In this document: positions 3,121 to 33,926 of the stretch, in pieces
How positions within the stretch are numbered: position 1 is the first letter of the stretch
Layout: each line of letters begins with the position of its first letter
Assembly: GCA_009908945.1 (NCBI GenBank)
Contig: JAAAOI010000268.1
Coordinates: 1-34,471 of the forward strand
DNA length: 34,471 bases
Direction of reading: 5' to 3'
Source: Bacteroidota bacterium
Lineage (GTDB): Bacteria > Bacteroidota > Rhodothermia > Rhodothermales > Salinibacteraceae
Notes under the pieces: generated by a model
What the model was told of the DNA's origin: nothing
The model's database searches: none
Seen by the model: the letters and a program-made list of their open reading frames with translations, nothing else
Program-made: the position numbers and the translations under genes

Positions 3121-3455
3121 GGCAGTGGAGGCTCGGCGAGAAAGACAGACAGGATGTCGATCTGTGGCAGCCTTTGTACCACAGGCCTGGGGGGAGGTTT
3201 AGGTCTTGCTCCGGGGCCCGGGCATGCGCGCCTTCTGGCGTGCACCGGCATGCGCCAAACCTGGGGGCTTTCTTTAGCGCATGTGCCCGCCTTTCACGGG
3301 TGAAACCGCTATGGCTGCACAAGCCAGCTTGATGCTACTTTCACCCCTGTTGCGCAGAAGGAGCTATGTGGCAAAAATGGCACCCAAGCGAAAAAAGGTG
3401 TATCATGCAACGTCTCCCTACTTTCCACGAGGCTGTCCGATAAGGTCTGTTTGCC
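3121..3455. other. 335-bp gene-free divergent spacer between the aldolase-like gene and the T6SS locus
   Basis: No supportable gene lies here, and the spacer must hold the start signals of both flanking units. It contains a hairpin (3225-3232 with 3237-3244, loop TTCT, one G-U pair), a perfect short inverted repeat TTTCAC-GG-GTGAAA (3292-3305), and an A-rich stretch from about 3371 to 3397 just upstream of tagH. A 13-base string at 3363-3375 is identical to the reverse complement of the tandem-repeat unit found after vgrG. No clean -35/-10 pair and no sigma-54 GG-N10-GC element was seen before tagH. Confidence 0.5.
3292..3305. promoter_or_regulatory. Perfect inverted repeat TTTCAC-GG-GTGAAA, possible operator
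   Basis: This 6-bp palindromic half-site pair with a 2-bp centre lies 150 bp upstream of the tagH start, in the long divergent spacer. Such a short symmetrical element could be a dimeric regulator site controlling the T6SS or the aldolase-like operon. There is no direct support beyond its symmetry and location. Confidence 0.25.
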
Positions 3456-4682: not shown

Positions 4683-4772
4683 CCGGCGCGCACGGACGGT
4701 CACCACATGACCGGTCGCGCTCTGGCCTTGTGCTACGTTACACCTACGCTCACCGCCTGACTGTTTTCGCTT

Positions 4773-5282
4773 ATGTCCCCTGCTTGCTCCCGTCAATGCC
4801 TCCTCCACCGCACCGGGGCCCTTGTAGCAGCCGGGCTACTGCTGGTGCTCGTCCTTTCGGCCTGCGGCTCCTCCGATCCCCTGCGATTGCCGCTTTCGCT
4901 CGAAGGGGCGCCCTCGATGAACAGCGGGGGCAACGCGGCGGTGGTGCGGGTCTATCAGTTGGCCAGCAGCACCACCTTCCGGCAGGCGCCTATCGAGTCC
5001 TTTTGGCAGGATGACGAGGGCCTGCTCGGCCGCGATCTGGTAGTGCCCAAAGTGGAGCGCACGCTGTACCCGGATGATGTGGAAGAGATCACGCTCGAGA
5101 TCCACGAAAATACGCGCTACATCGCGATCGCCGTGGATCTGCGCGACCCGGATGCCGACCACTGGCGCCAGCTCTTCACCGTGGAAGAAGTCGGGGAAGG
5201 GCAACCGTTTGTGGTGGAGGTCGGCGAGCGGCGCCTGCGGCTGGCGCTGCATCCCACACCATCCGAGGGGCGCGCGCTATGA
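4773..5282 (+). CDS. tssJ: T6SS outer-membrane lipoprotein TssJ
   Basis: TssJ is the outer-membrane lipoprotein of the TssJLM envelope complex and binds the periplasmic C-terminus of TssM. The 169-residue product has a lipoprotein signal peptide: a basic start, a hydrophobic core at about 16-28, and lipobox LSAC with Cys31 as the lipidation site. The mature part is a small beta-sandwich with the family-like segment VRVYQLASSTTFRQAPIESF followed by a DDEGLLG element, then beta strands ending in the VEVGERRLRLAL stretch. It ends 74 bp before tssK. The TssJ-K-L-M order fits. The ATG at 4773 gives a well-formed signal peptide and is preferred. Confidence 0.9.
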   Translation: MSPACSRQCLLHRTGALVAAGLLLVLVLSACGSSDPLRLPLSLEGAPSMNSGGNAAVVRVYQLASSTTFRQAPIESFWQDDEGLLGRDLVVPKVERTLYPDDVEEITLEIHENTRYIAIAVDLRDPDADHWRQLFTVEEVGEGQPFVVEVGERRLRLALHPTPSEGRAL

Positions 5283-5356
5283 ATGGCTTTATCAACTCTT
5301 TACGCGTGATAACTATTTTCGCATGATACGCTCATGATTCCCTGAAGGGTCGCCTT

Positions 5357-6721
5357 ATGTCTCAGTTTCATAAACGTGTGGTGTGGTACGAAGGGATGAC
5401 CCTTGACCCCCATCATTTTCAGCAGTGGGACCGCCACGTGGTCCAGCAGTTGCATACCCGGATGCAAGCGGTGATGGCGCGCGGATGGGGGTTCACGGAG
5501 CTGGGCATCGACCGGGACCGGTTGGCCAACGGAACGCTGGCGCTGACACGCTGCCGCGGGGTCATGTCCGATGGGTTGGTGTTCGACATCCCGGACACGG
5601 ATCCACTGCCTGAGCCACGAGCGGTGGAGGAGGCCTTCCCGGCCACGGCGGAGGTGCTGGAGGTGGCCCTCGCCGTGCCTGCGCACCGCACGGACGGCGG
5701 CAACATCGAGCGCGCGGGCAGTCCGGCTGGCCGCGAGCCCCGCTTCACCACCGAGACGCTGACGCTGCCCGATGATACCACGGGCGCCGACGAGCGCCCG
5801 GTGGAGGTGGCGCACGGGTGCTTCCGCCTCCTCTTTGGCGGCGAGCCGCAGCAGGCCCTCCGCACGATGAAGCTGGCCGAGGTGGTCCGCACCTCCAGCG
5901 GGGCCTATCAGCTCCGGGACGGGTTCATCCCGCCGTGCCTTTTTATGGAAGCCTCCGACGTGCTGATGCGCTTGGCGCGCCGCCTGCTGGAGGTGATGGT
6001 GACGCGCAGCGCGGAGCTGACCAGCCGAGCCCGCGGCATCCGGCAGCAGCGGGAGGTGTCGGTGGCCGACGTCACGGCGCTGGGGCTGGCCAGCGCGATC
6101 AACACGTACCTGCCCGTGGTGAAGCATCACCACGCCTCGGGCACGTCGCACCCCGAGGCCTTCTTCGAGGTGATGCTGGAGCTCGGCGGGCAGCTCTCCA
6201 TCTACGCCGACGCCAAGCCCCTCCCGGTGCGTGACTTCCCCGTGTACGACCACGGCGCCCCGTCCGCGCCGTTTGCCACGCTGGACACCGCCGTGCGCGA
6301 AATGCTGGGCGGTGCGGCCCCGCCTTCCAACTTTACTGAAGTCCCGCTGAGTACCTCCGGTGAAAACCTCTACACCGCCACGTTGGAGGCTGCGATGCTT
6401 TCCGGCAGTGCGCTGTACCTGTTGGCCCGGAACGGGTCCATGCCCGCCCACCGCCGAGCAGCTGAGCTGCCCCTGATGCTGCGCATTGCCTCCCCTGACA
6501 CCATCGACCCGGTGCTGCGCAGCTACACCCGCGCCCTTCCCGTCGATCATGCGACGACCCTGCCTGGCGGCGTCCCCGTGGACGAGGAAGCCACCTACTT
6601 TCAGCTGCAGCAGACGGGCCCGTTCTGGGAGGCCATCACCAAGGAGCAGGCGTTGGCCCTCTATGTGCCGCCCGATTTTCGGGACGTGTCCTTCGACCTG
6701 ATTGCCGTCAAAACCGCATAA
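5357..6721 (+). CDS. tssK: T6SS baseplate-membrane connector TssK
   Basis: TssK trimers connect the TssEFG baseplate to the cytoplasmic parts of TssL and TssM. The 454-residue protein starts with the hallmark N-terminal block VVWYEGMTLDPHHFQQWD, matching the TssK (VasE/ImpJ) family. The central neck region has PPCLFMEASDVLMRLARRL, and the C-terminal head ends in FYVP-like residues (ALYVPPDFRDVSFDLIAVK). Its length is normal (about 440-460). It lies between tssJ and tssL in the usual order. A weak purine stretch (GAAGGG) precedes ATG 5357. No anomaly seen. Confidence 0.95.
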   Translation: MSQFHKRVVWYEGMTLDPHHFQQWDRHVVQQLHTRMQAVMARGWGFTELGIDRDRLANGTLALTRCRGVMSDGLVFDIPDTDPLPEPRAVEEAFPATAEVLEVALAVPAHRTDGGNIERAGSPAGREPRFTTETLTLPDDTTGADERPVEVAHGCFRLLFGGEPQQALRTMKLAEVVRTSSGAYQLRDGFIPPCLFMEASDVLMRLARRLLEVMVTRSAELTSRARGIRQQREVSVADVTALGLASAINTYLPVVKHHHASGTSHPEAFFEVMLELGGQLSIYADAKPLPVRDFPVYDHGAPSAPFATLDTAVREMLGGAAPPSNFTEVPLSTSGENLYTATLEAAMLSGSALYLLARNGSMPAHRRAAELPLMLRIASPDTIDPVLRSYTRALPVDHATTLPGGVPVDEEATYFQLQQTGPFWEAITKEQALALYVPPDFRDVSFDLIAVKTA

Positions 6722-6790
6722 GCCCCACGGAAGCCCCGTTATCCGCGCCGCCCGCTGCTCACGTGCCTCTCGCCCAACCCCTGCCGCCCC

Positions 6791-7513
6791 ATGGCTGGTT
6801 CTGCTGCCTCCACCGATCTGCTCTTCGACCCCTCTGCCGTCCGGCGGCTTTCGACGGTCTACTCCGACTGTTTTGCCCTCATATTGCAACTGCGGGCCAC
6901 GGAAGACTTCGGCCCGCCTGAGACCCTCCGTGCGCGCCTGAAGGAGCTTCTGCAGGAGGCCGAGCGCGCGGCGCAGGGGCAGGGCATCTCCGCCGCCGAA
7001 ACGCGCTCGGCCAGCTTCGCCCTGGTTTCGTTCATCGACGAAACCATCTTGTCCTCCAACTGGCCGCACAAGGAATCCTGGCTCACCGACCCGCTGCAGA
7101 AAGAGCGCTACGACCGAACGGACGCCGGGGAGGAATTCTTCAGCCGCGTAGAAGAAATGCTCAGGCATCCCCAACGCGATGCGGAAGTCCTGGAGGTCTA
7201 CTATCTGTGCATGACGTTAGGCTTTAAGGGCAAGTACCAGCTGCACAGCCAGGGGCAGCTGCGCGCCTTGATCGAGACGATTCGCGAGCAACTGCGGAAG
7301 GCCCCCGGCTTTACGGCGGCCACCCTTGCGCCCCACGGCACGCCCGAGGACCAGGCAGCGGCCGCATTTAAAAGCAGGCTGCCTACGTGGGTGGTGCTGG
7401 CGCTGGCCGGCGCGCTGGCGCTGGTGATCTACGTGGCGATGAGCTTCTACATCGAAAGCGTCGCGAACAGCGCGGCGGCATCCATCGAAGCGGTGGCCTC
7501 CGTGCTCTCTTGA
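6791..7513 (+). CDS. tssL: T6SS inner-membrane protein TssL (DotU/IcmH-type, short form)
   Basis: TssL is the DotU-like inner-membrane partner of TssM and contacts TssK in the cytoplasm. The 240-residue product has the cytoplasmic all-helical domain, with the family signature around ASFALVSFIDETILSSNW (about residues 76-93) and the YYLCMTLGFKGKY block (about 137-149). A single C-terminal transmembrane helix follows (about 199-218: VVLALAGALALVIYVAM), then a very short periplasmic tail. There is no OmpA/peptidoglycan-binding extension, so anchoring to the cell wall must come from another protein or be absent. No Shine-Dalgarno precedes ATG 6791. tssM follows after 48 bp. Confidence 0.94.
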   Translation: MAGSAASTDLLFDPSAVRRLSTVYSDCFALILQLRATEDFGPPETLRARLKELLQEAERAAQGQGISAAETRSASFALVSFIDETILSSNWPHKESWLTDPLQKERYDRTDAGEEFFSRVEEMLRHPQRDAEVLEVYYLCMTLGFKGKYQLHSQGQLRALIETIREQLRKAPGFTAATLAPHGTPEDQAAAAFKSRLPTWVVLALAGALALVIYVAMSFYIESVANSAAASIEAVASVLS

Positions 7514-7561
7514 AGCTGATGCTGGCCGCTCCCTCTGTTTTCTCTTAACGCAAACGACGCT

Positions 7562-10500
7562 ATGCGGTGGTTCTTGCAGATCTTTAAAAGCCGCGGCTTT
7601 CTCATCAGCCTTGGGCTTCTCGCGGTCGTCGCGCTGTGGGTTACCACGACCCTGTGGTTTGCCTGGTCCACGACCACCCTGCTCATCGGCCTGGTGGTGA
7701 TTTTGCTGGTGTGTGTGGTGGCGTTGCTGCTGCACGTGCTGCGGGCCCAGCGCAGCTCCGATGCCATCGAGCAGTCCATCCGGCAGCAGGCCGAGCAGCA
7801 GCGCATGACTGCCGGCCCCGATCGCCGGGCCGAAATCGCGCAACTGCAAGAGCGCCTCGAGGCCTCCATCAACCAGTTGAAAGACTCCAGGCTGGGCGGG
7901 CGCGGCGGGCGTGCTGCGCTCTACGCGCTGCCGTGGTACCTCTTTGTAGGGCCGCCCGGCGCGGGCAAGACGACGGCCATTGCCAACTCTGGTCTCAACT
8001 TCCCGATGGGCGTTGACCGTGTGCGGGGCGTGGGCGGCACGCGCGACTGCGACTGGTTCTTCTCCGATGAAGCCATCCTGCTGGATACCGCCGGGCGCTA
8101 CATGACGGAGGAGCAGGACACGGAGGAGTGGACCACCTTCCTGGAGACCCTCAAAGAGCACCGGCCCGCTCGCCCGATCAACGGCGTCATCGTGGGCATC
8201 AGCATTAGCGAGCTGGCCGAGGCCTCCGGCGAGCAGATCGAGTGGCACGCCGCCAACATTCGCCGGCGCATCGACGAGCTCATCAAGCAGCTGGGGGTGC
8301 GCTTCCCAGTCTATCTCGTATTTACCAAGTGCGACCTCCTGCAGGGCTTCACCGAGTTCTTCGGCGAGCTGACGCGGCAGGAGCGCCAGCAGATCTGGGG
8401 GGCTTCGCTGCCGGTGGGCGAGGGCCGGGACCCCGGGGCGGCCTTTGAAGCCGAGTACGAGCACATGGTGGAGGCGCTGATCAACCAGCGTACCGTACGC
8501 CTCGGACGCTCGATGAAGCGGGAAAACCGGCGCCGGGTGTACGTCTTCCCGCTGGAAGTGGCCGCCGTGAAGGAGAACCTTCGCTCATTCGTACAGCAGC
8601 TGTTTCAGCCCAACCCCTACCAGGAAACGCCCGTATTCCGCGGGTTCTACCTGACGAGCGGCACCCAGGAAGGCGCTCCCATCGACCGCGTGATCCAGGC
8701 CATCGCTGATAAGTTTGGGCTGCCAACCGGGCGAGCGGAAGCGGCGCCCTCACCGCTGGAGGCCAAGAGCTATTTCATCAAGAACGTCTTTACGGACGTG
8801 ATCGTGCCGGACCGCTACCTGGTCCAGCAGACCTCCAAAGCCGCAACACGAGCACGCCTCATGCAATTTGGTGCAGCCGCTGCCGCCGTGGTGTTGCTCG
8901 CACTGTTCATTGTTGGGACGTCGCTGGCCCTGCTGAGTAGCCGCAGCCACCTGCAGGGCGTGGAGCAGGCTGCGCTGGCCGCCGCTGATGTCTCGTGGGA
9001 GGGCCCGCCCCAGCCTGCAGACCTGGAGCGGATGCAGGCGTTGGGAACCGAGGTATCGCTCCTCCACCGACGGGACGGGCGCCCGCCGCTGCTGCAGCTG
9101 GGCCTGTACCGTGGCGGTGACGTGATGGGGCCAGCGCGCGCCCTCTACGAGCGCAAGATGCAGGCCTTTGCAGAGGCCTACCCGTTGCGAGCGCTGCGCG
9201 ACTCGATGCAACAGGCCACCACCCGGGGCTTTCTGCCCGGCGAAGCGCGGGAGGCGCTGTACGAGCGCCTGCGAGCCTATCTGCTGCTGAGCAGCGAACA
9301 TGAGCGCCTTGCAGACGAAACCAATCGGGCGTTCCTTACCCGCGTGCTCACTGCACACGGCACCACAGGCCTCACTGCAGGCCTGGGTACCGACCTCCAC
9401 GCTGGGGTCGAAGGACTGGTGGAAGCCTACGTGAGGGCTCTGCACGAAGGCACGCTGGCCCCACAGGAGGCCGACGACCTGCTGATCCGCCGCTCCCGCA
9501 ACCTCATCTATGAGCAGCCCAGCATCGCCAGCGCCTACCAGCGGATTCGGCAGGAAGGGCTGGATGCGCTCCGGCCCTTTACGCTGGTTGATGCACTGGA
9601 TGGCCGGTACATCGGGCTCTTTCAAGGAGAGCCCGAGGTCTCGGGGTTTTTCACGCAGGAAGGATGGGCCCGCTACGTGCTGGACCGCATCGTGGAGGAG
9701 AGCGAGGACCCCACGGCGGACGACTGGGTGATGGGCCGCACGGAGGACGAACTGCCAGCCGCCATGCTGGATAGCGAGAGCATGATGCTGGAACTGATGC
9801 AGCTCTACTTTAACGACTACGCCAACGCCTGGCAGCGCTTCGTGCAGCAGGTACGGTACCGCCCCTTCCTTGACTTGGTGGATGCTGCGCGGGGCCTGGA
9901 ACAGATCAGCAACCCGAGCGACTCTCCTGTGCTGTGGCTCTTGGCGCAGGTCACGAACCAGACGACGTTTCCGGAGGAGGGCGGGCTGAACGCCGGAGAA
10001 CTGGCCGATCAGGCCTCCGGGGTGCGGGGCCTGCTGAGGGGCGCGCCCCGCCGCGCCCTGGACCGGGCCAGCCGCATGGGCGGCGGGGGCGATGACGGAG
10101 AGGCCGAAACGGCCCATCCCGTAGAGCAGCGCTTTACGGCCTTGCACGATCTGCGCGCCCCAGAAGCCGTGACGGGCGGTGCCTCGGCCAACCTGATGCA
10201 GGCGCTGGCCGGCCTGACCAACGTGTCCAGCCTGCTCAACGATGCCGCCGCCGATGATGCGCAGGCTGCCGAGATTGCGGCGCGCGTCCTCGACGGGAAT
10301 GGCGGCGCCCTGGCGCGCGAGCTGCGCAGCATACAAAACGCGCTCGTCCGTCTGGATAGCGACACCCGCCGCACCCTGTTCGAGCAGCCCATCCGCATGG
10401 CCTGGGCCGCTGTGATGGCGGCTGCCCAACGGCACCTCGACCGGCAATGGACGAACGAGGTGCACCGCCCCTTCCAGCAAACCCTTGCCGGGCAGTACCC

Positions 10501-13975: not shown

Positions 13976-14509
13976 ATGTCTAACAGTTTTCAGCATGAAA
14001 AACCGCCGGCCCGCATCAACCTTTTTCTGGAAGTGGCCAAGGGCAATGCGAAGAAAAAGATGGAGCTCCCCCTGCGGATGCTGGTAATGGGAGACTACCT
14101 GGGCCGGGAGTCCGATACCCCGGTATCGGAGCGTGAGGTGGTGAATCTCAACAAGGACAACTTCGAAGACGTGATGTCCTCTGGCGAGATGGAGCTGAAC
14201 TATACGGTTAAAGACAAGCTGCGTGGGGGCGACCATGACATGCGCGTCAACCTCGATATTGACAGCATGGATTCGTTCAGCCCAGAGGCGGTAGCACAGC
14301 AGATCCCAGAACTTAGCCGCTTGCTGGCCACGCGTAACCTGCTGCAGGACCTGCGCAATCGCCTTATCAGCATGGGCGACTTCCGGAAGCAACTGGAGTC
14401 AGTGATCAAAGACGAAGCCCTGCGCGAGAAACTGCTGGGCGAGCTGGATGCCGTAGTGGCGGCCGAAGAAGCTGAGGCCAACGCCCCGACCGACAAAGAC
14501 GACGCCTGA
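13976..14509 (+). CDS. tssB: T6SS sheath small subunit TssB (VipA)
   Basis: TssB pairs with TssC to form the contractile sheath. The 177-residue protein has the typical block LPLRMLVMGDYLGRE (about residues 38-52), the NLNKDNFEDVM segment, the SMDSFSPEAVAQQIPEL stretch (about 99-115) and a C-terminal helix ending in an acidic tail. Its length is normal for VipA-type proteins (about 165-180). No Shine-Dalgarno is visible before ATG 13976. It is followed 89 bp later by tssC. It is the canonical reference for recognising the TssB-like half of the fused protein at 32052. Confidence 0.96.
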   Translation: MSNSFQHEKPPARINLFLEVAKGNAKKKMELPLRMLVMGDYLGRESDTPVSEREVVNLNKDNFEDVMSSGEMELNYTVKDKLRGGDHDMRVNLDIDSMDSFSPEAVAQQIPELSRLLATRNLLQDLRNRLISMGDFRKQLESVIKDEALREKLLGELDAVVAAEEAEANAPTDKDDA

Positions 14510-14598: not shown

Positions 14599-16128
14599 AT
14601 GGCCGAGCCCCAAGCTTCCTCTCCCGCCCCTGATGCTCAAGTCGCCGAAGGCGAAGCCAGCCTGCTGGACAGCATCCTCTCCAAAGTGGAAGTCAAGATG
14701 CCGGACGCGTCCGTTCGGGTCTCCGACTTCAAGCACCAGAGCGCTGTAGCCGAAAAAGACCGCGGCGCGATGGTTTCTGCTGCGCTGCGTGTCTTCATCG
14801 ACGCCGTAGCATCGATGGAAAGCAGCGTAGAGAAGATCGACAAGTTCCTGCTGGACAGCCTCATCGCCTCCATCGATGAGAAGATCAGTACGCAGCTGGA
14901 CGTCATCCTGCACCACGACGACTTTCAGGACCTGGAGTCGGCGTGGCGGTCGCTGAAGGACTTGGTGGACCGGACGGACTTCCGGAAAAACATTACGCTT
15001 GAGTTGCTAAGCGTGACCAAGGAGGAGCTGCGCGAGTCGTTTGAGGACGCCCCTGAGCTCATTCAGTCCGCCCTCTACAAGCACGTCTACACCAACGCCT
15101 ACGATCAGCCTGGCGCGGACCCGTATGCGGCTATTGTGACGGACTACGAGTTTGACAGTTCGGCGCAGGATATCGCGCTCCTGCAGAATGCCTCCAAGGT
15201 AGCTGCGTCGGCGCACTGCCCGTTCCTGGCCAACGTCGGGCCTGAGTTTTTTGGGAAAGACTCCATGGAGGAGTGGAAAAAGATTCCCGACCTGACAGCC
15301 TACATGGAAACGGCGGATTACATCAAGTGGAACTCGTTCCGCGACACAGAAGACGCGCGCTACGTGGGCCTCAGCTTTCCGCACTACATGGCCCGCCTGC
15401 CGTATGGCCCGGACACCAACCCGGTGAAATCGTTCAACTACGTTGAGGACGTGAAGGGATCAGACCACGACAAGTACCTGTGGGGCAATTCCTCTTTCCT
15501 GTTTGCCTCGAACATGGTGAAGTCGTTCATGAGCGACGGCTGGTGCGTGCAGATCCGTGGCCCGCAGGCCGGCGGGAAGGTGGACGATTTGCCCGTGCAC
15601 ATGTACGATGTAGGCAAGGGCAAGCAGATGAAAATACCGACGGAGGTACCCATCAGCGAGACGCTGGAGTTTGAGTGTGCCAACCTCGGCTTCATTCCGG
15701 TGAGCCACTATCAGGGGCAAGACTTTGCGGTGTTCTTCTCGGCCAACTCAGCGCAGCGCCCACAGCTCTACGATGATCCAGATGCCACCGCCAACAGCCG
15801 CATCAATGCGCGCCTGCCGTACATCTTCTTGGCCTCTCGTATTTCGCACTACCTGAAGGTGCTGCAGCGTGAAAATATCGGGGCAACGAAGGACAAGACC
15901 GTCATTGAGGACGAGCTGAACGCGTGGCTGAACAGCCTGGTCACCGAAATGCCCAATCCCACACCGGCGCAGGTGGCGAAATACCCCTTGCGTGCTGCGC
16001 AAGTAGAGGTGCATGACGTGGAAGACAACCCGGGCTTTTTCCGCGTGCAAACCTCCATCATGCCGCATTTCCAGATTGAGGGCATGGACATCAACCTGTC
16101 CCTCGTCGGAAAACTCCCGAAGAAATAG
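14599..16128 (+). CDS. tssC: T6SS sheath large subunit TssC (VipB)
   Basis: TssC is the large sheath subunit. The 509-residue product has an N-terminal helix (LLDSILSKVE, about residues 21-30) in the position of the ClpV-recognised helix of VipB. It then has the conserved core: the LESAWRSLKDLVDRTDF block (about 113-129), the ALLQNASKVAASAHCPF region, and the SFPHYMARLPYG stretch. The C-terminal part has GPQAGGKVDDLPVH and ends with the beta strand of the handle domain (MDINLSLVGKLPKK). Length and order are normal. The ATG at 14599 lies 89 bp after tssB. No defects seen. Confidence 0.97.
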   Translation: MAEPQASSPAPDAQVAEGEASLLDSILSKVEVKMPDASVRVSDFKHQSAVAEKDRGAMVSAALRVFIDAVASMESSVEKIDKFLLDSLIASIDEKISTQLDVILHHDDFQDLESAWRSLKDLVDRTDFRKNITLELLSVTKEELRESFEDAPELIQSALYKHVYTNAYDQPGADPYAAIVTDYEFDSSAQDIALLQNASKVAASAHCPFLANVGPEFFGKDSMEEWKKIPDLTAYMETADYIKWNSFRDTEDARYVGLSFPHYMARLPYGPDTNPVKSFNYVEDVKGSDHDKYLWGNSSFLFASNMVKSFMSDGWCVQIRGPQAGGKVDDLPVHMYDVGKGKQMKIPTEVPISETLEFECANLGFIPVSHYQGQDFAVFFSANSAQRPQLYDDPDATANSRINARLPYIFLASRISHYLKVLQRENIGATKDKTVIEDELNAWLNSLVTEMPNPTPAQVAKYPLRAAQVEVHDVEDNPGFFRVQTSIMPHFQIEGMDINLSLVGKLPKK

Positions 16129-22966: not shown

Positions 22967-25900
22967 ATGACTACACCCTATAGCTTTTCGCTCTTAAGCG
23001 CCAACGCCGATGTGGAGCTGGACGTCTTCAGCTTTGTGGGGCGCGAACGCATGTCGCAATTGTATCAGTTTGAAGTTACGGTGTCCGCGACAGCTCCCCT
23101 GAACATCGACGCCGCTGTGGGCGAGCGAGCCGAGCTGATGATGCGGCAGGAACGCACTGTTGAGGGCACGGCGGAAGTGCTCAGCCGGCCGGTCTACGGG
23201 ATTGTCAGCGAGGTGCAAGTGGGCGCCCGTAAGGAAGTCGGCGATGACATGCTGGACTTCTACCGCTTTCAGGTGGTGCCGCAGCTCTGGAAGCTGTCGC
23301 TGAGCCGGCGCAGCCGGGTCTTTCGCGACAAGACGGTGGGCAGCATCCTGCACACTGTGCTCTCCGGGGCGGGCTTGCAGGCAGACGTAGACTTCCACGT
23401 CCAACTGGGCAGCGACGCCCAGGGGGCCCTCTACGAGGAGCGGGAGTTCTGCGTGCAGTACAAGGAAAGCGACTTTGCTTTCATCAGCCGCCTGATGGAG
23501 TACGAGGGCATTTTCTACTACTTCGAGATGGAGGAGGCAGAAGAGGCGGAGAAGAGGCGGGAGGTCCTTGTGATTACGGACGGGAACCCGGCGGATGAAC
23601 TCCCCGACGTGGAGTACCAGGACCGCAGTGCTTCGGACCCCAGACCGGCTATTCATCGCATGACGCTTCGGCGCACCCTCACGCCAGGCAAGGTGCGAGT
23701 GTGGAATAATGACGTTGGGGATTTCAAGGAGCATGGCGACTCAGAGGCCCCCGTCGCTCGCGGGGATGAAGGGGTGGCGTATGAGGAAGACGGGGAATGG
23801 CTCCAAGAGAAGCGAGGGGCCACCGAGCAACATGTCGACGACAACGTGGGCGACCTTGACCGGCTCGGGCAGCGCCTCGGCCAGGTGGCCCGCCGCCGCT
23901 CCGAGGAGATTGCGGCCAACCAGGCCGGCGCCTACCGCGGGCAGATGACGGATCCGCGCTTCTGGGCCAGCGCCGTGGTGGAGCCTACCCTGTGGAACGA
24001 AAACGGCCCGGGCGATGCGCCCGCGCTCCCGGGTGGCGAGACGCGCTTCCTGATCACGAGCCTGCACCACGCGGGTGCCCAGCGCAGCGGGACGCATGGC
24101 GGATTTGACGAACGCGACACGCAACTCGATGCCTACCCCACCGATCTGCAGCCCCTCCTGCAAACCGCCGGCCAAACGAACGAAGCGGCCTACGCTGGGG
24201 CCTTCACGTGCATCCCAGCGGCCAAGCCCTACCGCGCCCCGCGGACTACGCCGGTACCCCGCGTGCCCGGCATCCTCACCGCCAAGATTGAGGACCAGGG
24301 GGAGGCTACCGTAGATGCAGAGGGGCGCTACCGCCTGCGTATGCATTTTGACCACGATGAGCATGAGGCGAACACTGAAGGCTCCACACGGCCCGTGCAT
24401 ATGGCCCAGCCCTACTCAGGGCCCGACTATGGTTTCCACTTTCCCAACCGGGAAGGAGCGGAGGCGGTCGTATCTTTTATCGATGGCGACATCAACCGCC
24501 CGGTGATGCTCTCCACCGTACCGACGCCCAAGAACCACACCGTCGTTCCCAATACCAAACACAAGCTGCCCACGCAGAATGCACCGGAAGGGGCGGGTGC
24601 TGCGGCTGTCGCTGCAGGGGAGGGCATAACGCCCGAGAACCAGGAACCTCAAACCTTTGATGCCAACAAGAATGTTATCCAGACGAAGAAAGGCCATCGA
24701 CTGGTCATGGATGATAATGACGGCACCGGTAACGTGGGGATCAGTCTGCAAGTTGGCAAAAGTCCGATTGAGGGCGGCACAGCCGACGCGTACTGGGCCT
24801 CCCGTATTGATATGGGCGGCTACCGGAAGAAGGCCTTCATCGAACAGTTTATGGATAGCGCCTCCCACGTGCACCCGTGGCTGGGATCTGCACTCTCGAA
24901 GCGGATTCAGGCCATTCCTGAATATGCCGGCCTGATCGGTGAGATTACGGCGTCTGCCGTCTCGACGGGCAACTATATCTCGGATACGTTCGGAGATACG
25001 GCGCCGGTGGGCATTGGCGGGGTGTCTTCCCAGGACGTGAAATTTGCAGGCGCCAACGGCGTTAATCTCATCATGCCCAATCTGCTGGGCGCCTGGGGCG
25101 TCGGCATCCTGCCAGGCCTTGGGCCAGGCAACCACCGCGTCGGCAACGCCATCGTCAATTTCCTGATCAACGTGCTGTATCAGGACACAATCAGGGAGGG
25201 GATGGACTTTGCTGAAAACGTCAAGAAAAAGAGCCAGGATGCAGATCCGGATTTTCCAGAGCTTGGCAAAGAATGGTCACGGTTGCAAGACTTCTGGGGA
25301 TGGGAGAAAAAGAAGAAACTTGCTTTCGTCAGTGGCACCCTGCAAAGCGCTATGGGCATGCCGGCAATCAACCTGAAGTCAGCCGCTGGTATCAACCTGG
25401 CAGCCTTCGGCAAGACGTCCGTTATGGGCGGCTACGGCGGGATCGAGCTCGAGTCCAAATCCGTGATGAATCAAAGTGCCGACCTGGATTTCAACATCGA
25501 AGCCAAGCAGAGCCTGGTGATCAAGACGAAGGGCAAGCCGATCGGCTCCCCAGGCTTTCTGGGCGTCTGGCCGCGGTTGGCCGGGGCCTTCCCTCTCGTG
25601 AAGAATATTCCGTTTCCGAAGAAGGCCAGCCCGAAACCGTCGCCGGCGGATTGCCACCTGACCCTCCTGAATGAGAACCAAAACATCCAGCTTTTTACAC
25701 CAGAGGGCGACATCCGAGCAAAGGCAAAAAATACGCTCCATCTGGAGTCCACAAAGGGCAGCATTACGGCGGAGGCGCCGGAGGGAGCCATCTGCCTGAA
25801 CACGGGCACCGCTGGCGTTAATGTCCGTGAGGACAGTGGGGTCAGCCTGATATCCTCCAAGGAGCCTATCTCCCTGGTGGCCGGCAAGGCGTCGATTACG

Positions 25901-26479
25901 CTGCACCCGGATGGCACGATCGATATAAACGGCACGAAGGTCACCGTCAATGGGTCGGACGAGACCCTCGTAAAGGGTGGAAAGACGCTCGAAATGCACG
26001 GAAAGACGACCACCATCAACGCGTCCGCTCCACCGCCGGGCAGCCCGCCGCAGATGCCCGATAAGCCGGATGCAATGGCGGCACCGATACTGGATCAGAT
26101 GGAGCCTGTAGAGCCCTCCCCCGATGCATCGAAGGAGGAACTGAAACGTGTTGCAGCCCTGAACAAGAGTATCGCGGAGTACAATGCAGCGCAACAGCGG
26201 CGCTACCAAAAGCGAGAGCAAGAATATAGCAAGTACATCAAGGCCCTCGAAAAATATTACACGGACATAAGCGCGTGGGTAAGCAAGACCGGCCAGGCCA
26301 CCGCTACCCTTGAGTTGGGGACGAGTGGCATTAAGGCGGATACGAAGTCTGACGTCAAGATCACGTGTACCAACTATTCTACGGACGCCAAGCTAAAAAG
26401 CGAGACGAAGGGCACCATGATAGATGCTAACGCCAAGGGCATCTTATCTATCAAGGGGGCCATGACAAAGATTGGGTAG
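22967..26479 (+). CDS. vgrG: T6SS spike protein VgrG (TssI) with central insertion and C-terminal extension
   Basis: VgrG trimers form the puncturing tip. The 1170-residue protein has the gp27-like base (residues 1 to about 420, with FVGRERMSQLYQFEVTV and the YKESDFAFISRLMEYEGIFY block), then the gp5-like OB fold (about 430-525, GRYRLRMHFD and GPDYGFHFPN). The spike starts at NVIQTKKGHRLVMDD (about 567). An unusual region, roughly 610-880, is Gly/hydrophobic and Lys-rich and not typical VgrG. The beta-spike resumes and peaks at ASITLHPDGTIDINGTKV (about 973-990). A Pro-rich linker, a helical/coiled-coil segment (about 1055-1105) and a further beta-like tail end the protein. The region from about 24650 is visibly less GC-rich than neighbours. 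PAAR, rhs and accessory genes follow, so it probably carries their cargo. Confidence 0.93.
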   Translation: MTTPYSFSLLSANADVELDVFSFVGRERMSQLYQFEVTVSATAPLNIDAAVGERAELMMRQERTVEGTAEVLSRPVYGIVSEVQVGARKEVGDDMLDFYRFQVVPQLWKLSLSRRSRVFRDKTVGSILHTVLSGAGLQADVDFHVQLGSDAQGALYEEREFCVQYKESDFAFISRLMEYEGIFYYFEMEEAEEAEKRREVLVITDGNPADELPDVEYQDRSASDPRPAIHRMTLRRTLTPGKVRVWNNDVGDFKEHGDSEAPVARGDEGVAYEEDGEWLQEKRGATEQHVDDNVGDLDRLGQRLGQVARRRSEEIAANQAGAYRGQMTDPRFWASAVVEPTLWNENGPGDAPALPGGETRFLITSLHHAGAQRSGTHGGFDERDTQLDAYPTDLQPLLQTAGQTNEAAYAGAFTCIPAAKPYRAPRTTPVPRVPGILTAKIEDQGEATVDAEGRYRLRMHFDHDEHEANTEGSTRPVHMAQPYSGPDYGFHFPNREGAEAVVSFIDGDINRPVMLSTVPTPKNHTVVPNTKHKLPTQNAPEGAGAAAVAAGEGITPENQEPQTFDANKNVIQTKKGHRLVMDDNDGTGNVGISLQVGKSPIEGGTADAYWASRIDMGGYRKKAFIEQFMDSASHVHPWLGSALSKRIQAIPEYAGLIGEITASAVSTGNYISDTFGDTAPVGIGGVSSQDVKFAGANGVNLIMPNLLGAWGVGILPGLGPGNHRVGNAIVNFLINVLYQDTIREGMDFAENVKKKSQDADPDFPELGKEWSRLQDFWGWEKKKKLAFVSGTLQSAMGMPAINLKSAAGINLAAFGKTSVMGGYGGIELESKSVMNQSADLDFNIEAKQSLVIKTKGKPIGSPGFLGVWPRLAGAFPLVKNIPFPKKASPKPSPADCHLTLLNENQNIQLFTPEGDIRAKAKNTLHLESTKGSITAEAPEGAICLNTGTAGVNVREDSGVSLISSKEPISLVAGKASITLHPDGTIDINGTKVTVNGSDETLVKGGKTLEMHGKTTTINASAPPPGSPPQMPDKPDAMAAPILDQMEPVEPSPDASKEELKRVAALNKSIAEYNAAQQRRYQKREQEYSKYIKALEKYYTDISAWVSKTGQATATLELGTSGIKADTKSDVKITCTNYSTDAKLKSETKGTMIDANAKGILSIKGAMTKIG

Positions 26480-26490
26480 CGCGGTACTGC

Positions 26491-26580
26491 ATAGCCTCTT
26501 TGCCACATAGCCTCTTTGCCACATAGCCTCTTTGCCACATAGCCTCTTTGCCACATAGCCTCTTTGCCACATAGCCTCTT
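26491..26580. repeat. Tandem 16-bp repeat, five perfect copies plus a 10-bp partial
   Basis: The unit ATAGCCTCTTTGCCAC is repeated without any change at 26491, 26507, 26523, 26539 and 26555, then continues for 10 bases to 26580. It starts 11 bp after the vgrG stop and ends 30 bp before the PAAR start. The period is not a multiple of three, and neither strand holds a credible gene. Perfect identity suggests recent expansion by slippage or unequal crossing over. The reverse complement of part of the unit (13 bases) recurs at 3363-3375 before tagH. Confidence 0.95.
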
Positions 26581-26610
26581 CTTGCCCTTTCCACTCCACC
26601 ACGTACGGCC

Positions 26611-26940
26611 ATGTCGTTACCTGCCACCACCGTCACCGCATCAACGGTCCACGGCCCGCCCATTATGGGCCCCGGGTGTCCCACCGTGCTTATCGGCGGG
26701 AAGCCGGCCTGGCGCGTCGGGGATACGCATACGTGCCCCATGGTGAATGCGCCTCCCCCTGCAGGCCCCGGCACGCCCCACGGGCCCGGCGTCACCATGC
26801 CCCCGGGCTCCGTCACCGTGCTAATTGGCGGGATGCCCGCCTGCCGCACCAGTGACAAGGTGAGTGAGCCCGCTGCGGTCGTGCCGTTGCCGCCCATCAA
26901 CCCCATCTTGCCGGGTGTACCCACCGTATTGATTAAATAA
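26611..26940 (+). CDS. PAAR-domain spike-tip protein
   Basis: PAAR proteins cap the VgrG spike with a sharp zinc-bound cone and attach effectors. The 109-residue product is made only of the PAAR fold: the repeated pattern GPGCPTVLIGGKPAWRVGD, HTCPMV, GPGVTMPPGSVTVLIGGMPACR and LPGVPTVLIK. Candidate metal ligands are His40 and Cys42 (THTCP) plus Cys77 in MPACR. There is no N- or C-terminal effector extension, so cargo must bind non-covalently, most likely the Rhs protein or its accessory partners downstream. It follows vgrG after the 16-bp tandem repeat. The ATG at 26611 is the natural start. Confidence 0.93.
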   Translation: MSLPATTVTASTVHGPPIMGPGCPTVLIGGKPAWRVGDTHTCPMVNAPPPAGPGTPHGPGVTMPPGSVTVLIGGMPACRTSDKVSEPAAVVPLPPINPILPGVPTVLIK

Positions 26941-26984
26941 CCAGGCCCGGCGGCGCCCCGTGCGCGGCCGAGGCGTTGCGCCCC

Positions 26985-29663
26985 ATGCCCCTTCACGTTC
27001 ACGTCATCTCTGGTGCCACCGAGTGTTACGAGGAAGACCTCGTACGGCCCGGGCTCATCCCCGTGCGGGTAGCGCGCCTGTATGATAGCCGCCACCCTGG
27101 GGTGGGGGGGTGCGGCCGGGGCTGGATGCTCAATCTGGCCCTTACGCTTACGGTGACCGATGCGTATGTAACCCTGAAGACACCGGGCGAGCCCGATGTG
27201 GTCTTCTCGCCGATTCGGGAAGGGGTTACCGCCGTGCAGGAGGGCACCGGCTATGTGCTCGATCACTACGCGGATCGCTACGAGGTTGTCCGTGCTCCGG
27301 GATACCGACTTCTGTTCTCCAAGCACCTGGCCGCTGGCGGTGTGCACCCGCTGAGACGTATTGAAGACCGCGCAGGCAACCACGTCCAACTCGGCTACCG
27401 AGGCCGCACCCTTACGGAGGTGGCAGACACCCAAGGCCGCCTTCTGCGCCTCCAGCGTACGGGGGGGCTGCTTACCGCACTGGAGGTAACCCCACCGGGG
27501 GGCGGCGCAGGGCAGCAGGTGCGCACCTACGCTTATAACGCCCGGGGCCAGCTTGTGCGGGTGACTGATGCCATTGGCGCTGAGACGCGGTACCACTACG
27601 ACGGCGAGGTGCTCGTGCAGTACACGAACCGCGTGGGTGGTGCGACCTACGCGCAGTACAACGACGACCGGCAGTGCATCGCCTGCTGGCAGAGCAACAA
27701 CGCCCGAGCTCGCCGTGTGGCGTACGACGACCGGCAGCAGCTTACCCGCGTCATCGACAGCACAGGCCAGCAACACCTGTATCAGCACGCCGGCGAGGCG
27801 TTCGTGCTGAAGCACTTCTTCCCCAATGGGACGGAGCAGGTATATTACTATGACGAGGTCCAGCGCCTCATCGGATATGCCGCGATGGATGGACAGGTCG
27901 CTACGTTTCAACGGTATGAAAGGGAGGAGCAGACATTTCAGCAAATCGACGGTGAAGCACGCCTGGCTACGGTGCTACTTTCAGACACCGGCCAGGCCGC
28001 GCACGTAGCCGACGGGGCGGGCCACTCGTTCGCGCTGACGTACGATGAACGTGGATTTTCAGCCGGTCTGAAGACCCCAGCGGGGCACGCCTGGCAGTGG
28101 GCGCGCGACAAACGGGGGCGCCCCGTGTCCCTGACAAGCCCCGAAGGACGGATGGCGCGCTGGGCATGGGACGGGAGCGCGGGGTGCACGGTAACAGACG
28201 CCGATGGCGCACCGACGCATGTACGATACAATAACGCAGGCCGCATCGTGGAGGTCGTGCGAGCCGAGGGGGTGGCCCACGCCTTTGCGTACGATGCAGA
28301 GGGGCGCCTGACGGGTGTGACCCTCCCCGATGGCACAGCGCTCCGGTTTGGCTACGATAGCGAGGGCCACCTGACGGCGGTATCCGACACGCGCAATCGC
28401 CGGGAAGCCTTGCGCTACGATGCCTTCGGGCAGTGCACCTCGTATGCGTCTGGGGCTGCGCGGTGGCAATTCACCTGCGATAGCGAAGGGCGGCTGGTAA
28501 CCGTGCAGGATAACGCGGGGACAACCTACGCGCTGGCCTACCAGGCCGATGGGCGATTGCAGACGGTCCATGCCGATAGGGCCGCGTGGGCTGCGATTAC
28601 TTACGCAGAGGATGGGCTCATAGAGATCGACCGGCCTTCCGGGCATTATGCCGCCCGCTATAACGGCCTGGGGCAGCTTCTTGAGGAGCACAGCCCCCGT
28701 GGCGTACGGTCCCTTGCGTACACGCCCTCCGGCGCGTTGGCCAGTGCCCAGGTAAACGGTGACGCCCGCCACCTCACGTACACGCCCGACGGGCTGGTCC
28801 AGGTCTGTAGTGCCGATGCGCAGGACGTAACCCTGCAATACGACCGCGACGGGGTATTGCAGGGGGTGCACATCGGAGGAGCTCGGGTGCTGTCGCTGGA
28901 CGTGGACAAGGCCGGCCGGCTGCAAGCGCTCCAGATGGAAGGACGGCCACGCCGTCAGTACCGCTATGTCCCAGCCCACCGCCTACAGGAGGTGATTGGC
29001 GCCGATACGGTGCTTGCTTCGGTAGCGTATGGGGGCAACCAACGCCGTCTCCGCACCCCCGGTAAGGGGCAGGTTGACGATGCCGTGCTCGGGCACACTG
29101 CCTTGGGGGGGGAAGCAGAGGTCCGCCTTCAACTCACGACTGACGGCACGCATGTCGTCTCCCGGATGGCCTATGGTGGTGTGCTACTGCCCGTGTGGGT
29201 TCACACAGCTCAGCCTCACCGCACCCCGCCCCTGCATCAGGAAATAGCCCAAGCCTGTACCCTTCGCCCCACCGCCGCCCTCCTGCCATCGCCGATGCCT
29301 GCCCTGCAGACGTACGCGCGCTGGCGCGGTGCCCTTGCCACGCGCTGCCCGCTTACCAAGCTACCCATCGGGCTGCTTCCTGCGTGGTGGCAGCCGCTGG
29401 CCGCATCGTATGCCCTACAGCCCGCCGCCCAACAGCCGGTTGGGGGGCACGACCGCCCGCTGCAGCCGCTGCGTGGCCCGATGGATTTGGATCGGAGCCC
29501 AGACCCCGTCATCACGGGCCCGCACCAGCAGCAGGCTCTATGGCCGACGGTCTGGCCAGATCGGGCGATAAACCCCGTGCCGCTTGTGCCAGCAGGGATC
29601 GCGCGCCGTGGCGGCCCGACACCGCGCGAGATGCTGAAGTGGATTGAGCAGGAGGATACGTGA
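26985..29663 (+). CDS. Rhs/YD-repeat protein, probable T6SS cargo shell without a recognisable core or toxin tip
   Basis: The 892-residue product begins with a DUF6531-like segment (VISGATECYEEDLVRPGLIPV, VARLYDSRHPG, GRGWMLNL), then about 20 degenerate Rhs/YD repeats (patterns such as AYNARGQLVRVTDAIGAETRYHYD and AFAYDAEGRLTGVTLPDGTALRFGYDSEGHL) to about residue 700. Rhs repeats fold into a hollow beta cocoon that normally encloses a C-terminal toxin cut off after a DPxGx-type core motif. Here that motif is not seen. The last 170-190 residues are Pro/Ala/Gln-rich, with no known toxin signature. A TTG at 26976 would add three residues; ATG 26985 is preferred. It shares one base with the next gene (TGATG), so the two are translationally coupled. 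Confidence 0.85.
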   Translation: MPLHVHVISGATECYEEDLVRPGLIPVRVARLYDSRHPGVGGCGRGWMLNLALTLTVTDAYVTLKTPGEPDVVFSPIREGVTAVQEGTGYVLDHYADRYEVVRAPGYRLLFSKHLAAGGVHPLRRIEDRAGNHVQLGYRGRTLTEVADTQGRLLRLQRTGGLLTALEVTPPGGGAGQQVRTYAYNARGQLVRVTDAIGAETRYHYDGEVLVQYTNRVGGATYAQYNDDRQCIACWQSNNARARRVAYDDRQQLTRVIDSTGQQHLYQHAGEAFVLKHFFPNGTEQVYYYDEVQRLIGYAAMDGQVATFQRYEREEQTFQQIDGEARLATVLLSDTGQAAHVADGAGHSFALTYDERGFSAGLKTPAGHAWQWARDKRGRPVSLTSPEGRMARWAWDGSAGCTVTDADGAPTHVRYNNAGRIVEVVRAEGVAHAFAYDAEGRLTGVTLPDGTALRFGYDSEGHLTAVSDTRNRREALRYDAFGQCTSYASGAARWQFTCDSEGRLVTVQDNAGTTYALAYQADGRLQTVHADRAAWAAITYAEDGLIEIDRPSGHYAARYNGLGQLLEEHSPRGVRSLAYTPSGALASAQVNGDARHLTYTPDGLVQVCSADAQDVTLQYDRDGVLQGVHIGGARVLSLDVDKAGRLQALQMEGRPRRQYRYVPAHRLQEVIGADTVLASVAYGGNQRRLRTPGKGQVDDAVLGHTALGGEAEVRLQLTTDGTHVVSRMAYGGVLLPVWVHTAQPHRTPPLHQEIAQACTLRPTAALLPSPMPALQTYARWRGALATRCPLTKLPIGLLPAWWQPLAASYALQPAAQQPVGGHDRPLQPLRGPMDLDRSPDPVITGPHQQQALWPTVWPDRAINPVPLVPAGIARRGGPTPREMLKWIEQEDT
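29651..29656 (+). promoter_or_regulatory. Shine-Dalgarno GGAGGA deciding the pentapeptide gene start
   Basis: GGAGGA lies inside the last codons of rhs, six bases before ATG 29663 and only three before an alternative GTG at 29660. The spacing favours the ATG, which overlaps the rhs stop codon by one base. Confidence 0.7.
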
Positions 29664-31870: not shown

Positions 31871-31963
31871 ATCTTAATAAACTACCTCGCGAAAAGCATC
31901 GGTCGTTGACCGGCGTTGACGAGAAAAACGCGCGAGGCCATACGTGGCCAAGGACCTCTCCAC

Positions 31964-32002
31964 GTGATGACCTGCCGTGATGACCTGCCGTGATGATCAG
32001 CC
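31964..32002. repeat. 13-bp direct repeat, three tandem copies, before the fused sheath gene
   Basis: GTGATGACCTGCC occurs perfectly at 31964 and 31977 and with two changes at 31990. Each copy begins with GTGATG, which offers several spurious start codons and is why start assignment for the following gene is uncertain. The last copy ends 49 bp before the chosen ATG. Confidence 0.8.
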
Positions 32003-32051
32003 GTGCATGCCGCAGGGCCTTATGCTACCCTCCCCAAGCCCCGACATACGT

Positions 32052-33926
32052 ATGAGCGACCAACCCACCGACGGCGCAGGCTTTCGCATCACGTCCGACC
32101 CCGACCGCACCGAAATCACACAGCCCGGAAGGGACGCCCTGGAGCGCCCGGAGGTGCTGCCGCTGCGGATGCTGTTGGTAAGTCACCTGACGCCGGAGGC
32201 GGCTACGCCTTCATGGGAGAGCGGCGTGCACACCACCACCGTGGATGCCGCCGGCTTTGGCCCGTATATGGAAGCAGCGGCGCCCACGCTGGAGGTCAGC
32301 GTGCCGAACCGGGTCAGCGCGTCGCCCGAACGCCTCTCGGAGACCCTGCAGTTTACGTCGCTGGCCGACTTCTCGCCGGAGGGGGTAGCCGCGCAGCTGG
32401 CTGTGACTGCGCCGCTACTGGAGCTTCGAAAAGGGCTGGCCGAGGTTGCGGCTGGCGATCAGGCGCTGGATGAGGTGCGCGCATCGCTGGAGGATGGTGC
32501 GCTGAGCGGTTCGGTAGAAGCACTGCTGGATGCGCTGGGCAAGAGGTCGCGGGCAGGCGACACGGGAGCCAACGGGCGGCCCCCCGATACCAAGGAAGAC
32601 ACGCTGGACCGCCTGCTGTCGATGGTGGATGACGACGCCCCGGAGGCCTCACCGGATGCGCTGGCGGACGCCCTCACGGAGGCGGTGGTCGGGCCGTCGG
32701 ATACCACGCCGCGTCCGGCCGCCGATGCGCTGACGCAGGTGGTGCACCGGCTGGAGGCCCTGATCCGCGCCCAGCTTGAACCTGTGTTTGCGGACGTCTC
32801 CTTCCGCGCGCTCGAAGCTGCCTGGCGTAGCGTGCGTCTGCTCACCAAGCGCTTGCCCTTTCGAAAAGGCGTGGTGCTGGAGGTGCTGTCCGCTGCACCT
32901 GACCAGCTCAACGAGGCCATCCATCATCAGGTGGTGATGCGCGAGCACACGCGCACCGACGATGCGCCACCGCTCTCGGCGGTGCTGGTGGATACCGCCT
33001 TCGGCTGCACGCAGCCGGCGATCGATCAACTGCAGGACCTCGCCGCCTCTGGCGCCAGTGTGCAGGCCCCCATCATTGCGGCTGCAGCGCCGGCCTTCTT
33101 TCAGGTCGACCCTGCTCAGGCGCTCCATGACCTCCCGCCGCTCCGGCAGGTACTGGACGACCCGGCCTTCCTGCCCTACAAAAAACTTCGTGCTGATGAG
33201 GCCGCACGCGCGCTCGTACTCGCCCTACCAGCCTTCCTGCTACGCACGGCCCATACAGCGGACAGTGGTGCGCTGGTCGAAGATGCGCCGCTCTGGGGGC
33301 AGGCGCCCGTGGCTGTGGGGCTGGCCATGGCGGACAGCTTCGTGGCCACCGGCTGGCCCACGCACCTGCGCACCCGCATGCTGGGCAACTTTCCCATCCA
33401 CCGTACGCCGCAAGGCTATACCCCACTGGCCGCGCTGATTCCAGAGAGCAAGCTGGCGGGCTTTGCAAAAGGCGGTTTTACGGTGCTTACCAGCAAATCA
33501 AACCATGACGGGATTGCGCTGGGCCGCGCGCAGACGGTGGCGCTACCCGCCGAACACGAAGACCTCGTGGCGGCCACCGAAGCGCGTGTGCACGTGACGC
33601 TTCCCTGCCAACTCTTCGTAGCGCGGACGGCGCAGTTCCTGTTCACGCTGCAGTCAAGCGTCACGGCCGGGCCTGATGTAGAAGCCACAGCAGCCACCCT
33701 GAATGAGCACATCCGGGCCTTCTTGAAGGCGGGGGAGCCTACCCGGGTGGTTCCGCCGGAGGCGGTATCGGTAGAACCGGTGCCGGACGCGCCCATGGAA
33801 GGAAAGGCCCTCTTTGCCGTGCGGCTTCGTCCGCCTGCCTTTGTGCTCGACAAAGAGGTAAGTCTCGTGCTGGGCGTGCAGGTGCCCACCGCCGAACCGT
33901 CGGCTGATGCCCCCCCGTCCACCTGA
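32052..33926 (+). CDS. Single-chain TssB-TssC-like fused sheath protein
   Basis: The 624-residue product aligns by eye with both canonical sheath subunits of this locus. Residues about 30-165 match TssB: LPLRMLLVSHL (TssB LPLRMLVMGDYL) and DFSPEGVAAQLAVTAPLLELR (TssB SFSPEAVAQQIPELSRLLATR). An acidic/Pro-rich linker with DTLDRLLSMVD (TssC SLLDSILSKVE) leads to residues about 225-615 matching TssC: IRAQLEPVFADVSFRALEAAWRSV (TssC ISTQLDVILHHDDFQDLESAWRSL), LPFRKGVVLEVLS, GNFPIHRTPQGYTPLA near 445, and VHVTLPCQLFVARTAQFL near the end. It is highly diverged and unlikely to replace TssB/TssC in bulk. It could be a minor sheath or cap subunit or a regulator (inference). Upstream in-frame starts at 31977 and 32022 exist; ATG 32052 is preferred because homology begins after it. 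The FHA gene follows 29 bp later. Confidence 0.85.
   Translation: MSDQPTDGAGFRITSDPDRTEITQPGRDALERPEVLPLRMLLVSHLTPEAATPSWESGVHTTTVDAAGFGPYMEAAAPTLEVSVPNRVSASPERLSETLQFTSLADFSPEGVAAQLAVTAPLLELRKGLAEVAAGDQALDEVRASLEDGALSGSVEALLDALGKRSRAGDTGANGRPPDTKEDTLDRLLSMVDDDAPEASPDALADALTEAVVGPSDTTPRPAADALTQVVHRLEALIRAQLEPVFADVSFRALEAAWRSVRLLTKRLPFRKGVVLEVLSAAPDQLNEAIHHQVVMREHTRTDDAPPLSAVLVDTAFGCTQPAIDQLQDLAASGASVQAPIIAAAAPAFFQVDPAQALHDLPPLRQVLDDPAFLPYKKLRADEAARALVLALPAFLLRTAHTADSGALVEDAPLWGQAPVAVGLAMADSFVATGWPTHLRTRMLGNFPIHRTPQGYTPLAALIPESKLAGFAKGGFTVLTSKSNHDGIALGRAQTVALPAEHEDLVAATEARVHVTLPCQLFVARTAQFLFTLQSSVTAGPDVEATAATLNEHIRAFLKAGEPTRVVPPEAVSVEPVPDAPMEGKALFAVRLRPPAFVLDKEVSLVLGVQVPTAEPSADAPPST

Follow-up and report, generated by a model that had tools for sequence, protein, structure and literature searches.

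A T6SS cluster with a minisatellite between vgrG and the PAAR gene

The window analyzed here, a stretch of 34,471 bp, is an entire contig of a 3.34-Mb draft genome (268 contigs, 90% complete; G000 below), whose host is taken to be Salinibacteraceae-like, within Rhodothermales. Apart from the array that is the subject of this report, the window is a T6SS cluster as identified by Pfam, with Tss names read from the Pfam matches. Its members include an FHA protein, TssJ, TssK, TssL, TssM, TagF, TssA, TssB, TssC, Hcp, TssE, TssF, TssG, and ClpV, as well as VgrG, PAAR, Rhs, a pentapeptide-repeat protein, DUF2169, and a TssB/TssC-like open reading frame (ORF). The vgrG gene (22967-26479, plus strand; 1,170 aa) matched Phage_GPD (5.3e-49), Phage_base_V, and DUF2345, and ends in a TAG stop at 26477-26479. 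The PAAR gene (26611-26940, plus strand; 109 aa; PAAR_motif, 8.4e-13) begins with an ATG at 26611, a start consistent with its homologues, and downstream of it lies an rhs-repeat gene (26976-29663, plus strand; 895 aa; RHS_repeat and DUF6531).

The gap between vgrG and the PAAR gene measures 131 bp (26480-26610) and holds a 91-bp tandem array (26490-26580, plus strand) of the 16-bp unit CATAGCCTCTTTGCCA. TRF reported 5.7 copies as assembled, that is, five full units plus 11 nt, with 100% match and a score of 182. When the whole window was shuffled 200 times with dinucleotides preserved, the best score was 68, and the array is therefore not due to chance. A first-pass annotation made from the sequence had described a perfect 16-bp array between vgrG and PAAR genes, which the TRF match and the Pfam names of both neighbors confirm; its five copies plus a partial one also stand, while its start at 26491 has to be moved one base earlier. 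That the array fills almost the whole gap was somewhat generous: the gap is mostly filled, with 10 bp on the vgrG side (26480-26489, plus strand) and 30 bp on the PAAR side (26581-26610, plus strand) lying outside the array. The annotation rightly held that this is no CRISPR array, as the copies adjoin one another without unique spacers. Minisatellites are head-to-tail arrays of units of roughly 10-100 bp, and the array, with its 5.7 head-to-tail copies of a 16-bp unit at 100% match, is of this kind; it lies outside coding sequence, 10 bp past the vgrG stop and 30 bp ahead of the PAAR start. The 30-bp spacer is pyrimidine-rich and opens with CTTGCCCTTTCCA, which by eye resembles a broken additional copy. 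By arithmetic, the gap would measure ~56 bp once the surplus units are subtracted.

The cluster carries a second minisatellite (31963-32005, plus strand; TRF and sequence), with 3.3 copies of the 13-bp unit CGTGATGACCTGC at 93%. It lies just 5' of where the TssB/TssC-like gene probably starts, and its units carry GTG/ATG words in a shifting frame. That gene (31977-33926, likely start at 32053 by eye) encodes a second, diverged TssB/TssC-like protein, in which VipA (1e-13) and VipB (1.2e-30) matches fall within a single ORF. The fused-domain ORF coexists with TssB (13976-14509) and TssC (14599-16128) of the canonical, separate kind. Counting the own genome, 9 of 41 genomes of the order had a near-full-length match to the fused-domain ORF, and in three of these a single TGA lies inside the aligned stretch.

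Coding and RNA properties of the array

Each of the three sense frames of the array contains two stop codons, so that it cannot be translated through. The sense RNA had less structure than shuffles of the same sequence (z = +3.2), and its fold was weaker than that of 149 of 149 same-strand spacers in the genome sample (91-400 nt, one 91-nt stretch from each), as is expected anyway when the repeated unit lacks self-pairing. C minus G was at least as high as in the array in 8 of the 149 comparable spacers. Rfam gave no family at gathering score anywhere in the window; with the z-score and no terminator-like site at the array, nothing on the sense strand indicated a structured RNA or a terminator. 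A scan of 26200-27100 for promoters and terminators gave a single hit of each kind (shuffle means 0.3 and 0.7, respectively); the promoter-like and the terminator-like site each fell on the minus strand, left of the array. Read on the minus strand, the array has no stop in any of the three frames and falls within a 497-aa ORF, and RNA from that strand, if made, would fold better than shuffles (z = -3.0). A coding gene there was considered and set aside, since high-GC DNA commonly leaves the antisense strand open, as is taken to be the case over PAAR/rhs.

By eye, no Shine-Dalgarno (SD) word precedes the PAAR gene in 26581-26610. This is ordinary here, since an SD-like 4-mer was found at 9.9% of 497 predicted starts in the genome sample, whose same-strand spacers in general carry more C than G in the sense direction (C 0.353, G 0.264). 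Same-strand spacers were C-over-G rich (sense) in all seven samples compared (G000, G001, G002, G004, G005, G006, and G010), across which 4-11% of predicted starts had an SD-like 4-mer and 16-27% an anti-SD-like one.

Distribution of the unit and history of the gap

With 0 or 1 mismatch allowed, CATAGCCTCTTTGCCA had no copy beyond the array in its own 90%-complete assembly. A genome search for the unit had been proposed in the first-pass annotation, and its outcome gives no sign of a dispersed repeat. DNA matching the array was found in 0 of 40 relatives, two same-genus genomes among them. A query covering the gap region matched one of the 40 (2 of 41 with the own genome), at the PAAR end and not in the array. 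Plasmid and viral-contig searches gave no DNA match to the array, and these searches together with that of the family found no strain-level relative. With up to three mismatches, a 24-base stretch was present in 2 of 27 family genomes, own genome included, the other (G009) having two related copies.

The same-genus genome G001 keeps the order TssF-TssG-ClpV-VgrG-PAAR-Rhs-pentapeptide-DUF2169, and its syntenic vgrG-PAAR gap is 20 bp long and free of the array, which is thus lineage-specific. From this comparison of sequences, the array appears to have been gained after the split from G001 or else lost in G001. Nine more PAAR loci with a VgrG-type upstream ORF (L014, L015/L058, L018, L027/L063, L053, L054, L056, L061, and L062) showed no array in their gaps, which span 4-77 bp; L014 and L018 are cut loci that show the DUF2345 tail only, in L018 under its Pfam cut-off. 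Nor was an array visible upstream of PAAR at L055, L059, and L060, which were left out of this range because the longest qualifying upstream ORF lay 242, 232, and 250 bp off, respectively, and had no VgrG-type Pfam match. Thirteen weaker PAAR matches, out of 21 rows, stand outside this gap measurement; TRF, applied to every one of these loci, gave one array assigned to a gap, at L030. The recent expansion read from the array in the first-pass annotation is well founded: the copies are identical, the assembly has the unit nowhere else, and G001 has a short, array-free gap at the syntenic position.

One other array before a PAAR-like ORF was seen in G032, from another family of the order. There, 2.7 copies of a 60-bp unit unrelated to CATAGCCTCTTTGCCA (L030, 1214-1372) fill most of the gap between a 401-aa open frame and the PAAR-like ORF, and the array holds an inverted repeat, ATCCCGAACTAGATTCGGGAT, by eye.

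Other intergenic arrays and the 16-bp period

Other intergenic arrays with different units, some of 16 bp, are present in the genome sample. Between fliF and fliG of the own genome (genes by Pfam), TRF found 3.7 copies of a 16-bp unit (L079, 5012-5071), the first of which contains the TAG stop of fliF itself; the gap is 76 bp. In the congener G002, this gap is 45 bp without an array, and the N-terminal 201 aa of FliG are 96% identical. The flanks align through, which points to local tandem gain (or loss) and not to an inserted element, and the placement of the array on the fliF stop, together with its absence in G002, indicates that such arrays can arise in situ. For both arrays, then, an orthologous gap without the array exists, as befits minisatellites formed in place. 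A further 16-bp array of the own genome (L048, 111-259, contig C16), with 9.3 copies of GCCTCCCGGTAAGGAC, lies upstream of an RsmB/NusB-type rRNA methyltransferase gene.

In the own-genome sample (629,539 bases, TRF score of at least 60), intergenic arrays of period 16 numbered nine and those of period 15 ten. Outside the discovery contigs, 9 intergenic arrays of the three genomes of the genus had at least three copies, 5 of them with period 16; samples from four other genera of the family gave 15 such arrays, 1 of them with this period (exploratory Fisher p = 0.015). The cut-offs for this count (three copies, score 60) were chosen after the rows had been seen, so that it is not a true held-out test; it sets aside L079, which was fetched through a pattern match, the window itself, and the first 20 contigs. 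When two-copy arrays were counted as well, the 28 arrays of the genus outside discovery included 8 of period 15 and 10 of period 16, and a third batch of 20 own contigs (C200-C213 and C215-C220) had no strict period-16 array. Several of the period-16 units are alike by eye and may therefore not be independent. Arrays were called intergenic with a crude gene-calling script, which missed the PAAR gene, added by hand. With small samples and with counts against it, the genus may favor period 16, the sole surprising element of this analysis. In L122 (G010:C1:300001-320000), nearly 7 kb without a called gene by the crude caller (~1967-8926) holds eight TRF minisatellites of period 14-19.

Origin and possible roles of the array

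The array is probably an ordinary, young, slippage-born, and untranslated intergenic minisatellite. A non-coding stretch between vgrG and PAAR would have been tandemly duplicated in situ and then expanded in this lineage, presumably by replication slippage or else by unequal exchange. In E. coli, replication slippage was considered likely for variable segments flanked by repeats shorter than ~30 bp, the threshold quoted there for RecA-dependent recombination (PMC2884548). The 16-bp unit is below this length and so fits slippage, and the whole 91-bp array could also exchange unequally with a sister copy. If transcribed, the array would form an untranslated, unstructured spacer in a putative vgrG-PAAR-rhs message. 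As each unit adds 16 nt and neither protein is touched, copy number is probably near-neutral and likely strain-variable, and the variation from strain to strain raised in the first-pass annotation is plausible. Against so plain an origin, the weak fold and the C-over-G richness could reflect a selected property, loss in G001 is an alternative to gain here, and plain slippage does not account for the apparent period-16 preference of the genus. A common length shared by differing local units, if true, calls for a length-setting process, which slippage does not supply. A fixed 16-bp ruler (e.g., a polymerase, a nuclease, or a DNA-binding footprint) would make arrays at gene junctions from local and differing units, with other lengths in related genera of the family; we consider this process unlikely.

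The array might instead be a cis-acting mRNA element that tunes PAAR/rhs output, either as a standby site for a start that lacks an SD or as a Rho-loading (rut-like) stretch, in which case copy number would set the ratio of VgrG to PAAR/Rhs. It ends 30 nt ahead of the PAAR start in an SD-poor genome, and its fold, weaker than in every spacer compared and than in its shuffles, would suit such a role, as would a C excess matched in few spacers. The low structure, however, follows from the unit not pairing with itself, the sense-pyrimidine orientation is by eye inconsistent among the other arrays of the genus, and the array is missing from the syntenic gap of G001, whose cluster looks intact, which argues against its being essential. 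A standby or rut-like role is possible; that tuning of PAAR/rhs explains the array is, in our estimate, unlikely. The first-pass annotation had also suggested a recombination site for swapping PAAR/rhs cargo cassettes. The array does sit at the border of the cargo module, and G032, in the same order, likewise has one before its PAAR-like ORF, albeit with an unrelated 60-bp unit. The suggestion was not borne out: allowing one mismatch still yields no second copy of the unit in the assembly, the array has no counterpart among the 40 relatives, whose sole DNA match falls in the PAAR end, and a similar array of the own genome occupies the housekeeping junction fliF-fliG. We consider cargo swapping at this array highly improbable.

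Even less credible is a dispersed family of 16-bp repeats serving as protein-binding sites and sharing a conserved core, CATAGCCTC. This core is common to the window array and the fliF-fliG array (contig C156), with 16-bp spacing in both, and G009, of the same family, carries CATAGCCTCTCTGACTCATAGCCTCT. Four pyrimidine-rich arrays (L041, L089, and L095 of the own genome and L162 of G001) are alike by eye, with CCTCGTTTC-like units; this likeness indicates that some 16-bp units may be related to one another, though not to the window unit. The TAG common to the fliF-fliG array and the window unit is, in the former, a stop codon, however, and 6 of the 9 occurrences of CATAGCCTC outside both arrays in the G000 sample fall inside predicted genes. 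A two-core pattern with two mismatches was found in 3 of 27 family genomes, own genome included. As a dispersed motif, CATAGCCTC was rejected: of its 17 occurrences in the G000 sample, the two arrays account for 8, and permuted words reached a mean of 3.2 and a maximum of 30. The same fate befell the dispersed family as a whole, for which searches with the unit (exact and with one mismatch) in the own genome and with longer patterns (three or two mismatches) in 27 family genomes returned scattered weak relatives only. An assembly artefact or a miscounted copy number is very unlikely as well. The genome is a draft in 268 contigs, and among intergenic arrays with a TRF score of at least 100 in samples of three draft genomes of the genus, 4 of 11 lie at a contig end, which indicates that arrays disturb these assemblies; they probably break them and may be undercounted. 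The four are L095 (1-129), L082 (5-199), and L089 (1-229) of the own genome and L113 (16341-16433) of G002. Common short reads are, however, longer than the 91-bp array, and the contig continues for 7.9 kb beyond it through recognizable genes.

Relation to known repeats and implications

As a minisatellite, the array resembles the intergenic minisatellites/VNTRs of bacteria in its head-to-tail, near-identical units of non-triplet length, its intergenic position, its restriction to a lineage, and its single locus in the assembly. VNTRs are defined by copy-number polymorphism, whereas the window array is known from one assembly. The cyanobacterial STRR heptamers have a constant length of 7 bp and unit sequences that differ. 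The possible 16-bp pattern is like them in combining constant length with varied units but differs in the length itself, and the 16-bp bias rests on small samples. Closer in setting are the TAACTGA heptamer repeats of marine Beggiatoaceae, Cyanobacteria, and Bacteroidetes, which lie mostly between genes and, in the main species, chiefly before start codons (PMC4679880). Genomes that bear them often lack SD sequences, contigs terminate inside the arrays, and in two Bacteroidetes long TAACTGA arrays have no counterpart in a close relative, where the gap is shorter (PMC4679880). The arrays described here share with them the intergenic position near starts, the SD-poor genomes, the shorter array-free gap in a relative, and the arrays at contig ends. 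One sequence recurs among the heptamers, whereas here the length of 16 may recur and the unit sequences differ. A literature search, mostly of titles and abstract openings, returned no vgrG-PAAR tandem array and no bias to 16-bp arrays in this clade.

Taken as a whole, the array is an ordinary feature, and the apparent preference of the genus for 16 bp is its one loose end. The array is likely to serve as a marker of strains in an uncultured lineage, and the length of the spacer could be used to probe whether the ratio of VgrG to PAAR/Rhs depends on an untranslated spacer in SD-poor bacteria. If true across the genus, the 16-bp preference would mean that the length of bacterial minisatellites can be set by machinery rather than by sequence.
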